Origin: Lentilactobacillus curieae
GTDB lineage: Bacteria > Bacillota > Bacilli > Lactobacillales > Lactobacillaceae
Length of the DNA stretch: 64,000 nt
Reading direction: 5' to 3'
Assembly (NCBI RefSeq): GCF_000785105.2
Contig: NZ_CP018906.1
Location: 372,001 to 436,000, forward strand
A program made the position numbers and the translations under genes. The first letter of the stretch is position 1. Each line of letters opens with the position of its first letter. Under the pieces are notes generated by a model that made no database searches, was not told the origin of the DNA, and saw only the letters and a program-made list of their open reading frames with translations. This document shows, in pieces, positions 39,811-63,314 of the stretch.

Positions 39811-39958
39811 TAAAAATACCGTCACCCAGACACTTTTGCATGGATGACGGCTTTATCAGTCGAGTTGACACATTCCCTACGCAAGTGTTGGCTTACAGGT
39901 TCAAAGGGATCAAGTTGATAAAACTCGTCTCAGCTGCTACGGCAGCACCCCTAGTGTT
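39811..39958 (-). promoter_or_regulatory. TPP (THI-box) riboswitch with terminator
   Basis: On the minus strand the aptamer (39866-39958) shows ACTAGGGGTGC, CTGAGA, CCCTTTGAACCTG and GCGTAGGGAA, the conserved TPP-aptamer blocks. It is followed by CCGTCATCCA/TGGGTGACGG (39819-39850) and a T-rich tract, an intrinsic terminator before thiM. Binding of thiamine pyrophosphate should stop transcription of thiMDE. Confidence 0.95.
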
Positions 39959-39970
39959 TATAGGTTGATT

Positions 39971-60787: not shown

Positions 60788-61633
60788 CTAACGTCCTAAA
60801 AACTCCGCAATCAATTTTTCAGTCTTCTTAGTTTCACTTAATTTAGTCCACAAAATATAATCATGAAAAATATCGTTAAACTCAACCACTTCTATCTCTG
60901 ACTCAACTGCGTTATTCATTGCATCAACAAAAATTTGGTTATCAGGTACCAGCATTTCGTTATCACCATAAAATAGTTGAATTTTTAGTCCAGATAAATT
61001 TTCTTCCATAAATAGATCGACAACATCACCTTCAACTAGCCCATCATCAAATTGCTTACCAATCGTCTGCAGAACATCTAGTTCTAGAAAAACGTCATCC
61101 GCTTCTCGATGGTGGACACTGGAATTGGCCAACTCTAAATCCAGCCAAGGCGAAATTGCGACAATTCTGTTAACCTCTGCTGCCCTTCTGGTAGCAACTT
61201 GAAGCATTAAGTAGGCTCCAGCAGAATCGCCAACTAAGTTAATTGGCAAACTGTCTGCCACACATTCATCAAACGCCTTAACACAAAAATCAATGATTTC
61301 TGTGGACTTATGTGACAGTAACAAAGGAAAGTCGATAATCTTCAACTGAGAATTTGTTCTCTGGGCAAGGTTGGTAATGAACTCCAACTGATCTGCATTC
61401 ATTGGAGCAGTAAATGCCCCACCATGGAAGTACAATAATTGATTATCAGGTTTAGACACGATGTCCAGAGTTACAATTTGTCCGTTATCAATTTTCTTGA
61501 TATTATCATTGTACACAGGATCCTCGGAGAATAAATTCTGTTTTTGATTAGGTTTTAAAAAAGTGTGTGAAATGTTGTCCTTATAACTTTCGGATTTCAT
61601 TTTATGTAAAAGTCGCTTTGATCGAAAGCTCAT
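60788..61633 (-). CDS. Alpha/beta hydrolase (esterase, HSL-like)
   Basis: A 281-residue hydrolase with the oxyanion motif LLYFHGGAF (~residue 70), nucleophile NLVGDSAGAYLML (Ser ~147), catalytic Asp region LFYGDNEMLVPDNQ and His region FHDYILW. No signal peptide, so cytoplasmic. It acts on ester substrates by family; the precise one is unknown. The start at 61633 has GGGAGG upstream (CACGGGAGGTGTAGGCT). Confidence 0.85.
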   Translation of the reverse strand: MSFRSKRLLHKMKSESYKDNISHTFLKPNQKQNLFSEDPVYNDNIKKIDNGQIVTLDIVSKPDNQLLYFHGGAFTAPMNADQLEFITNLAQRTNSQLKIIDFPLLLSHKSTEIIDFCVKAFDECVADSLPINLVGDSAGAYLMLQVATRRAAEVNRIVAISPWLDLELANSSVHHREADDVFLELDVLQTIGKQFDDGLVEGDVVDLFMEENLSGLKIQLFYGDNEMLVPDNQIFVDAMNNAVESEIEVVEFNDIFHDYILWTKLSETKKTEKLIAEFLGR

Positions 61634-61717
61634 AGCCTACACCTCCCGTGATGTACCGCTTACATTAATATAACATTCCTACAAAAATTTGTCCGTACAT
61701 AACTCGTTTTTGATAAA

Positions 61718-61776
61718 TTCACAAAATCTTCACAATTTGTTCATTATTTGGCAACATTTTTTCTATATAGTTCTAA
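61718..61776 (+). promoter_or_regulatory. Promoter of sRNA 1 with TTCACA direct repeats
   Basis: TTCACA occurs at 61718-61723 and 61729-61734, an 11-bp period. A TATATAG -10-like box is at 61764-61770. The same elements recur before sRNAs 2 and 3. Confidence 0.6.
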
Positions 61777-61917
61777 AAGTAGCATAGGTAATAAAGTTTG
61801 TTATCTGTGTTAGCAATAAATTAAATCCCCCTTTAATTTATTACTTTTATATTCATATTCTTCCCCTAGAATATAGGTATCTTGAAGATAAGACATCCCC
61901 GTGTCTTATCTTTTTTT
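61777..61917 (+). ncRNA. Candidate C-rich-loop small RNA 1
   Basis: Three hairpins in about 140 bases, each presenting cytosines in the loop. AATAAATTAAA/TTTAATTTATT closes TCCCCC (61815-61842). ATATTC/GAATAT closes TTCCCCTA (61855-61874). The terminator AAGATAAGACA/TGTCTTATCTT closes TCCCCG (61885-61912) before a T-run. There is no ORF with a ribosome site. The 5' end is set from the -10 box. The loop sequence ATCCCCCTTT is the exact complement of the gtfA ribosome site. Homologous to sRNA 3 over most of its length. Confidence 0.75.
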
Positions 61918-61922
61918 GTATC

Positions 61923-61986
61923 TTCACAAATTCTTCACATTTAGAACACAATTTCGTTAAATTTAATTAGTACTATATAGTCAAAG
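61923..61986 (+). promoter_or_regulatory. Promoter of sRNA 2 with TTCACA direct repeats
   Basis: TTCACA at 61923-61928 and 61934-61939 (11-bp period) and TATATAG at 61974-61980. Confidence 0.6.
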
Positions 61987-62126
61987 GAAAAATCATAGCG
62001 ATATTCCTGGTACACATAATTCAACAATAAATTATTTAATAATTCATTGTCGTTTTGTTCGCATCTCCCCCTCATAAAAGATATTAGTCGCAGAAGAGAA
62101 GGTTCCCCCAACCTTTTCTTTTTTTT
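61987..62126 (+). ncRNA. Candidate C-rich-loop small RNA 2
   Basis: A diverged member of the family. The first hairpin (AATAAATTA/TAATTCATT, near 62024-62047) has lost its C-run. An unpaired TCTCCCCCTC is at 62064-62073. The terminator GAGAAGGTT (62096-62104)/AACCTTTTC (62110-62118) closes CCCCC exactly and precedes eight T. Confidence 0.65.
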
Positions 62127-62156
62127 ATACCAAAAATTGATCCATAAATCTCCATG

Positions 62157-62216
62157 TTCACAAAAAAATCACACTTTCGTCGTTTTTTTTTAACAGTTTG
62201 TGTGTATATTAAGAAC
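62157..62216 (+). promoter_or_regulatory. Promoter of sRNA 3 with TTCACA-type direct repeats
   Basis: TTCACA at 62157-62162 and ATCACA at 62168-62173 (11-bp period), with TGTGTATATT as -10 (62201-62210). Confidence 0.55.
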
Positions 62217-62369
62217 CATAGAGAAGAGGGTTACTTAAAAGCCTCTCTTCCTACCCCCCAATATCGTAATAAATTAATCCCCCATTAATTTGTTACTTTT
62301 CATATTCATATTCCCCTCAGAATATAGACATATTTAGAGATAAGACATCCCCCTGTCTTATCTTTTTTT
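62217..62369 (+). ncRNA. Candidate C-rich-loop small RNA 3
   Basis: A 5' hairpin (GAAGAGG/CCTCTCTTC, 62223-62250) and a single-stranded TACCCCCCAA come first. AAATTAAT/ATTAATTT then closes CCCCC exactly (62271-62291), ATATTC/GAATAT closes CCCTCA (62308-62325), and terminator AGATAAGACA/TGTCTTATCT closes TCCCCC (62338-62363) before seven T. Highly similar to sRNA 1 from the AATAAATTAA hairpin onward. Confidence 0.75.
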
Positions 62370-62471
62370 GTGCCTTCGTTTAAAGCAATATTCGAATAAG
62401 CTAAATGATTTTCGAATATTCTGATATAATAATTTTGAAAACAAAAACTTTATTATTGGAATGATAGACAG

Positions 62472-63314
62472 ATGAACACTGAACTATTTATAAAAACTAG
62501 AAAAAAGCTTGGTTACTCTCAAGAAGAACTATCCAAGGGTATCTGTACCCAAGCTACCCTAAGTAAGTTCGAAAAGTCAGGGAAAGCTCCCTCCATCAAA
62601 ATTTTGATTAGACTATGTGAACGCCTCGGTTTGACTTTAGACGATATCTTCCCAATCACATCAAAATCAGAAACTGACGCAATCAAAAAGCTAGATCATG
62701 CGGAGTTCCAATTGATTACCAGCGAGTTTGACACAGCAAAAAAGGAACTCGCATCAATTAAGAAGGACGATTTACAAGATAAAGCTTTAATGCAGTACTA
62801 CTTCATTAAGGGATTTGTATCTGCACTTGAAGACGCCCCATTATCTGATACCTTGTTTTACTTTGACCAAATTTTAAACGGTCTTGATGATGATCACCAA
62901 ACAGTATTCTCTTTACTGGCGTTTACCGGTGTAGGGACTGCTTACTTTAGGAACGGTGAAATCGACAAAAGTGAATTCTACTTTCAAAAGGTATTCGACT
63001 CACTTTACTCACTACCACTTGACGATGAACGGGCAGTTTGGCGGGCTCTTAGCATGATTTTCTACACAGCTGATTACTATGCTCACGCTAAGGAATACGA
63101 CACCAGCAATTCATTGTTAGAGTATGCTTATGGTATCTGTGCAAAGAGTCACGTCACCTACTACGTTGCTAGAATTCAGTTTAGGCGGGCGCAAAATATT
63201 CGTGAGGCTGGTCAAGATGATAAACGAATCGGTGAATATCTAAATGATGCCGCTGCGTTTGCGAGAATTAATAATAACCAAAAGTTGTTAAAGAGAATTG
63301 AAGATTTTGTTTAA
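62472..63314 (+). CDS. XRE-type regulator with TPR repeats (PlcR/Rgg-like)
   Basis: A 280-residue protein. The N-terminal helix-turn-helix (TRKKLGYSQEELSKGICTQATLSKFEKSGKAPSIKILIRLCERL, residues ~8-55) is followed by helical TPR-like repeats to the end (~70-280), the layout of the RRNPP family, whose members bind signalling peptides. No short peptide gene with a signal sequence is visible beside it, so a peptide ligand is not established. Two TTCGAAT motifs (62390-62418) lie in its promoter and could be an operator. Directly downstream of the sRNA array. Confidence 0.8.
   Translation: MNTELFIKTRKKLGYSQEELSKGICTQATLSKFEKSGKAPSIKILIRLCERLGLTLDDIFPITSKSETDAIKKLDHAEFQLITSEFDTAKKELASIKKDDLQDKALMQYYFIKGFVSALEDAPLSDTLFYFDQILNGLDDDHQTVFSLLAFTGVGTAYFRNGEIDKSEFYFQKVFDSLYSLPLDDERAVWRALSMIFYTADYYAHAKEYDTSNSLLEYAYGICAKSHVTYYVARIQFRRAQNIREAGQDDKRIGEYLNDAAAFARINNNQKLLKRIEDFV

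Follow-up and report, generated by a model that had tools for sequence, protein, structure and literature searches.

A tandem array of predicted small RNAs with C-rich loops, conserved across Lentilactobacillus, and a PieR-type response regulator as its candidate activator

Introduction

The LhrC RNAs of Listeria (LhrC1-5, RF00616) carry three redundant CU-rich sites, placed in a hairpin loop, a single strand and a terminator loop, with repeated UCCC motifs, and are reported to be under two-component control through LisR (PMC4132741). The csRNAs of Streptococcus (RF02379), members of the CiaRH regulon, are described as occurring several per genome, with a direct-repeat box whose spacer is 5 bp (TTTAAG-N5-TTTAAG, the CiaR box) and complementarity to ribosome sites (PMC8186281). 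RsaE/RoxS of Staphylococcus and Bacillus has C-rich regions able to pair with ribosome sites and is reported with the two-component systems ResDE/SrrAB (PMC4409812). The PieRS two-component system of L. monocytogenes is reported to control PrsA1, PrsA2, the secreted protein Lmo0881, Lmo0442 and the ABC genes Lmo1505-1506; the regulon members named are protein genes, and the term "small RNA" is absent from the main text of that report (PMC12234432).

Here we describe an array of three predicted small RNA genes in Lentilactobacillus curieae, located in a 64,000-nt stretch of DNA analysed as a whole (the window) from a genome that consists of one contig of 2.10 Mb. Like LhrC1-5, the array is multicopy and repeats its C-rich motifs redundantly, in the loop of a hairpin, in a single strand and in the loop of the terminator; it is tandem, as were the lhrC repeats of two Listeria-type loci that we examined, and its control by a two-component system is predicted. 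Unlike LhrC, it is made of three diverged paralogues rather than near-identical copies, it has phage-borne relatives, and no counterpart of its promoter box was found on the plus strand near lhrC. The array shares with the csRNAs the number of similar RNAs per genome, a direct-repeat box with a 5-bp spacer and regions predicted to be complementary to ribosome sites, but its box reads TTCACA-N5-TTCACA, and no CiaR-like regulator was found in one array-bearing genome (G020, 88% complete). It differs from RsaE/RoxS in being tandem and multicopy, and the response regulator encoded at 8.4 kb is nearest to PieR among the NCBIfam models listed, none of which is ResD. With the PieRS regulon it has in common a candidate regulator orthologue and a near-identical type of box, the members of the array being predicted RNA genes. 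The array resembles LhrC, csRNAs and RsaE in its predicted way of working. Searches of the open-licence literature listed no description of such lactobacillus small RNAs, nor of small RNAs in lactobacillus phages. The array is real and genus-wide, and represents a new family within a predicted kind of regulator that is already known.

Results and Discussion

Organization of the array

The array occupies an 838-bp gap of 30% GC between an alpha/beta hydrolase gene (60788-61633, minus strand, start at 61633), which diverges from it, and an Xre-type gene (62472-63314, plus strand, start at 62472, identified by Pfam). Open reading frames within the gap are short and overlapping, which bears out the preliminary description of this interval as gene-free. 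In each of the three units, all on the plus strand, a direct-repeat box and a -10-like element precede a predicted RNA with C-rich loops that ends in a terminator. Six hairpins with CCCC loops and stems of 7-13 pairs were found in the gap, whereas 500 dinucleotide shuffles averaged 0.22 and never exceeded 2, and the loops lie where they had been placed: TCCCCC, TTCCCCTA and CCCC in unit 1, CCCCC in unit 2, and CCCCC, CCCTCA and TCCCCC in unit 3. The same description had proposed three promoter-hairpin-terminator units. Its terminators are well supported (3 against 0.4 expected), but a plain sigma-70 scan of the gap returned 5 promoters against a mean of 6.5, which is chance level, and the promoters are proposed here because the repeat box and the -10 element are conserved among relatives. 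Elsewhere in the window, Rfam identifies a TPP riboswitch at 39856-39962 on the minus strand (60.1 bits).

Unit 1 (type A) begins with a predicted regulator box, TTCACA-N5-TTCACA followed by a weaker third half-site TTCATT at 61740-61745 (61718-61745 overall), which is exact in 22 of 26 unit-1 copies scanned. The distance from this box to the putative -10 element TATAGT (61766-61771) is fixed in an alignment of 18 copies, and TAT..T is invariant across them. The predicted small RNA of ~142 nt (61778-61919, start approximate) has a fold z-score of -7.6 over 61776-61919. It comprises hairpin 1 with a UCCCCC loop (61812-61845; folding and alignment), hairpin 2 (61855-61874), which is near-invariant in the alignment, and a terminator hairpin with a CCCC loop and U tail (61884-61919; terminator scan and folding). 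The design is that of unit 3, with hairpin 2 reading AUAUUC-UUCCCCUA-GAAUAU; variants of this hairpin have an extra A after the loop (two genomes) or the loop UUCCUCUA (G004). No ORF of at least 8 codons was common to all 8 unit-A copies checked for a coding role.

Unit 2 (type B) has a predicted box TTCACA-N5-TTCACA at 61923-61939, exact in 13 of 14 unit-2 copies scanned, and a putative -10 element TATAGT at 61976-61981, assigned from sequence and by analogy with unit 1. Its predicted RNA of ~140 nt (61988-62127, start approximate) contains the C-rich stretch UCUCCCCCUCA at 62064-62074, to which similar stretches can be seen by eye in the arrays of relatives, and ends in a terminator hairpin with a CCCCC loop (62092-62127; terminator scan and folding). 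Since its fold z-score is only -2.7, unit 2 is weakly structured outside the terminator.

Unit 3 (type C) follows a predicted box TTCACA-N5-ATCACA at 62157-62173 and a putative -10 element TATATT at 62205-62210, which is also seen by eye in relatives. Of the 18 unit-3 copies scanned, 12 have a box with no more than one mismatch. Its predicted RNA of ~154 nt (62217-62370, start approximate; z-score -8.05 over 62223-62370) contains, by sequence and folding, a single-stranded CCCCCC at 62254-62259. This is followed by hairpin 1 with a CCCCC loop (62266-62296), hairpin 2, AUAUUC-CCCUCA-GAAUAU (62308-62325), and a terminator hairpin with a CCCCC loop (62336-62370).

Distribution and relation to known families

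A DNA search with the array found a match in all 24 Lentilactobacillus genomes examined, in some by a short stretch only, and in none of 17 genomes of other genera; a plasmid collection gave no array match. A signature pattern of unit 1 matched 14 stretches in a named genome collection, 13 of them from Lentilactobacillus records and the remaining one from a metagenome bin of Lactobacillaceae. The covariance model of unit 3 (R1) matched 25 of 397 genomes of the family, namely 23 of the 24 of Lentilactobacillus and two of one other genus, g88; an exact 16-nt core of unit 3 hairpin 2 occurred in 21 of the 397, comprising 19 of Lentilactobacillus and the same two of g88. Each g88 locus has a single unit among other neighbours, with a box at 1 and 2 mismatches, respectively. 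Of 24 loci, 23 have the divergent hydrolase next to the array and one has the Xre-type gene.

Units 1 and 3 had been called clear duplicates, and the covariance models agree and add unit 2 as a third, more diverged paralogue: the unit-3 model recognises unit 1 at E 7.5e-15 and unit 2 at E 3.2e-7, and we therefore regard the three as paralogues. The unit-1 model scores unit 2 at E 3e-5. Copy number varies among loci, and three genomes have two type-A units.

At the array no Rfam family reaches its gathering score, and no LhrC, csRNA or RsaE model matches. RF00616 did not reach gathering anywhere in the window and gave no array match even when E values up to 5 were admitted; RF02379 reached at best 32.2 bits against a gathering score of 57 (E 0.035), on unit 2 only; RsaE/RoxS appeared neither among the Rfam matches that pass gathering nor among those with E up to 5. 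The array had been likened to LhrC, and membership of that family is not supported, being rejected by covariance models in both directions: across the order RF00616 was found in 33 of 246 genomes, which come from 2 of 64 genera and do not include Lentilactobacillus, and the array models find nothing in six lhrC loci. What stands of the preliminary description is a conserved, multicopy array of small RNAs with C-rich loops in a lactobacillus.

The promoter box and its candidate regulator

The box TTCACA-N5-TTCACA occurs three times in the gap at no more than one mismatch, against a mean of 0.004 in shuffled sequence. Taking the best box of each of 58 units in 25 loci, as found by script patterns (one unit with N bases was skipped, and units missed by the patterns are uncounted), 39 are exact, 48 have at most one mismatch and 54 at most two. 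The unit-1 copies of G006 and G014 score four mismatches in this count because their box lies further upstream; a longer stretch holds ATCACA-N5-ATCACA, with two. Half-sites recur at 11-bp intervals, with the third ~20 bp ahead of the -10 element, an arrangement expected of an OmpR-type activator. Across the window genome, 29 box-like sites were found against 13 in the control, three of the 29 being in the array. TTCACA-like boxes were also seen in G000 (contig C1, 318-325 kb; L046, L052-L054) and at L064, next to genes for large secreted proteins and for a pyridine nucleotide-disulphide oxidoreductase, and ahead of a putative adhesin.

The window genome has seven OmpR-type regulators. For the response regulator at 8.4 kb the best NCBIfam model is PieR, at 291.7 bits and thus below the cut-off of 450. 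This protein is 60% identical to one in G085, the next matches being at 43-47%, and the kinases align at 39% over 488 aa; G085 is taken for Listeria because it carries the LhrC family. The putative DNA-reading helices of the two PieR-type proteins, GDERTVDAHVKKLRQK and GDERTVDVHIKRLRQK, located at what we take to be the position of that helix in response regulators, are nearly alike. Among five other regulators of the window genome the WalR helix is next closest, sharing part of the sequence, and those of the LisR-like and VanR-like regulators differ from PieR. In a retention test that took in all 22 regulators, the PieR-like regulator was kept in 4/4 small genomes tested. In the smallest genome (G020, 88% complete) the PieR-like, WalR, VanR-like and LisR-like regulators are kept, PhoP and a CiaR-like regulator were not found, and the unit-1 box reads TTCATA-N5-TTCATA. 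The pieRS region of the window genome itself contains no box at up to one mismatch and one poor site with two.

In G085, six TTCATA-N5-TTCATA sites were found, one letter off the array box in each half. Three of the six have, 38-81 nt downstream, a gene for a PrsA-type foldase (assigned by the Pfam rotamase domain), one for a secreted protein of 158 aa or one for the ABC permease divergent from the pieR orthologue (L303, L300, L304); the other three are without a gene of such kind. Because the site beside the pieR orthologue had already been seen when the TTCAYA form was settled on, that site is not independent. The genes at the three sites resemble in kind the published PieRS regulon as far as it is reported (PMC12234432); gene names in G085, including the identity of PrsA and of the secreted protein as Lmo0881, are assigned from product and position. 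These sequences suggest that the three sites may be PieR operators. The TTCACA form with one mismatch gave 25 sites in G085 against 16 in the control, none of them before the PrsA gene. Four similar TTCACA-N5-CTCACA sites followed by TATAAT were also observed in G085 (L267, L269, L270, L273), two of which precede similar genes of 94-96 aa.

The alternative that survives best keeps the same array and has it driven by the LisR/CovR-like regulator (1.77 Mb) or the VanR-like one (0.29 Mb) instead of PieR, the names LisR-like and VanR-like reflecting in part a presumed resemblance. Both regulators, like WalR, are also kept in 4/4 small genomes tested, and LhrC of Listeria is reported to depend on LisR (PMC4132741). 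Against this, the six lhrC loci, scanned on the plus strand, have no box within two mismatches near lhrC, and the two regulators differ from PieR in their DNA-reading helices. Furthermore, a single letter may separate regulators, since TTTACA repeats precede one pstS-like gene. We regard control by either as a minority reading, with perhaps one chance in four, and on the sequence comparisons above the regulator is likely PieR-like rather than LisR.

Two further regulators were considered. Control by CiaR is disfavoured by its different box and by the apparent absence of a CiaR-like regulator from G020 (88% complete). Control by PhoP is disfavoured by the sequence TTTACA-N5-TTTACA at one pstS-like promoter and by the failure to find PhoP in G020. 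That promoter is at L118, and TTTACA half-sites precede another pstS-like gene at L121 (both genes named by eye); it is possible that these sites are PhoP boxes, one letter from the array box.

Related units in phage contigs

The exact 18-nt hairpin 2 of unit 3 is present in three viral contigs; the 19-mer of unit 1 hairpin 2 is in none, and a 14-base form of the unit-3 hairpin, which matches at least 120 stretches, is too short. In all three contigs an RNA-like unit lies between a tail gene and holin and endolysin genes as assigned by PHROGs, the tail match in L123 being weak (E 2.7e-5). The three phage units share a 5' hairpin, in which four pairs are changed on both sides, and the invariant hairpin 2, and are scored by R1 at E 1.6e-6 to 1.6e-4. 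They are preceded by a TATAAT-type -10 element (by eye), and the best forward box-like site upstream has 3-5 mismatches. Extra R1 matches in G019 and G011 fall in a phage region resembling that of L125. An annotated phage collection contained no relatives of the phage unit. At L113, L114 and L123-L125, a further hairpin beyond the phage RNA-like unit was also seen to be CCCC-looped.

Covariation and mode of action

In 18 aligned copies, the structure of unit 3, which was drawn on the same alignment that was then scored, has 97.9% of cells paired, and 10 of its 27 pairs show changes on both sides. Ten such pairs were reached by 16 of 500 shuffles and the covariation score by none of the 500; slid controls of the structure pair only 33-43%. 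Both the 5' stem (two-sided changes in 5 of 13 pairs; 97.4% of cells paired) and the terminator stem (two-sided changes in 5 of 8 pairs) vary and covary. Hairpin 2 never varies and, being invariant, shows no covariation. Alignments of units 1 and 3 show terminator stems that change with loops that stay constant. The preliminary description had called for a covariance-model search, and the small-RNA idea survives it, with stems that covary and loops that are conserved among relatives.

We propose that the units are three paralogous trans-acting small RNAs of ~140-155 nt, each transcribed from its own promoter, and that they probably switch off messenger RNAs in cell-surface stress. An OmpR-family response regulator, most likely of the PieR type from a secretion and envelope-stress two-component system, would bind TTCACA-N5-TTCACA upstream of the -10 elements and switch on all three units together. 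By analogy with the systems above, we infer silencing at ribosome sites: the loops and single strands with UCCCC(C) would base-pair with GGGG(G)A in G-rich ribosome-binding sites and so prevent translation, and the presence of several such loops would give redundancy and dosage, as shown for LhrC. The targets would likely include small exported proteins, whose silencing would lower the secretion load in surface stress, and the phage units, with the same hairpin behind a boxless promoter, would reach these targets independently of the host signal. For this full model, drawn from the conservation, paralogy, stems, loops, boxes and phage copies and extending to transcription, PieR control, pairing, targets and phage purpose, we estimate a probability of about 0.6.

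Rather than pairing with messengers, the invariant hairpin 2 might act as a sponge for an RNA-binding or metabolic protein, with the C-runs as part of the recognition. Such a role would fit a hairpin that in unit 3 is constant in both stem and loop, without compensatory change, and that is found again in the three phage units; but the other C-rich loops sit on freely varying stems, and C-runs occur in single strands as well, both of which fit base pairing better than protein binding. We consider the sponge unlikely. That the units are cis-acting leaders or attenuators of neighbouring genes is suggested by the position of the array directly upstream of the Xre-type gene and by the persistence of the divergent hydrolase beside it, yet every unit has its own terminator, the hydrolase is read the other way, and the units are not leaders of the Xre-type gene because it is present at a single locus of the 24, making this very improbable. 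Repeated DNA elements of some other sort, in place of RNA genes, would hardly show two-sided pair changes, a box at fixed spacing and terminators, and this explanation is the least credible of all.

As a speculative extension of the PieR-controlled array, it is conceivable, though we would not expect it, that the array is a Gram-positive counterpart of the sigma-E/MicA-RybB logic: a PieR-type secretion-stress system would drive it and halt translation of exported proteins as folding factors rise, and phages would have taken the key hairpin to impose this shut-down late in infection, bypassing the host signal. If our reading of the array is true, lactobacilli gain a small-RNA system present throughout a genus, for which a candidate regulator can be named and a binding box predicted, and a surface-stress circuit in food bacteria becomes directly testable. 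The box would also suggest a PieR operator in Listeria, and the occurrence of a host-type hairpin in phage genomes, flanked by tail and lysis genes, prompts one to ask how phages make use of the small-RNA targets of their hosts.

Predicted targets

The UCCCC(C) loops are predicted to pair with GGGG(G)A at ribosome sites, and G-rich ribosome sites are common across Lentilactobacillus. Genes for small exported proteins with a signal peptide and an ATWHxGxP motif have GGGG at the ribosome site in 13 of 29 cases against 33 of 179 other genes (p = 0.003), a count in which paralogues are not independent and some of the "other" genes are in fact exported; the family was collected using a query with a partly wrong tail. 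Under a wider definition, such sites precede 28 of 80 exported-protein genes and 35 of 211 others (p = 0.001), falling to 8.4/28 against 21.3/116 when pooled by clusters. In loci taken for Listeria the figures are 1 of 8 and 13 of 93, numbers too small for a comparison. These sequence counts give a hint that exported proteins with G-rich ribosome sites may be targets.

A search for AGGGGA before ATG gave 103 sites in G000 against 41 in a reversed control and was too loose. No protein of at least 30 residues was common to 20 AGGGGAA sites of G000, taken from the first 60 of the 103 places with two array-internal sites left out, and 20 of the 26 such sites of G005. The small exported protein at L160 had no Pfam match. 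Clusters of small exported proteins were observed at L197 (G017) and L198 (G023), and all eight of those listed have GGGGGA-type ribosome sites.
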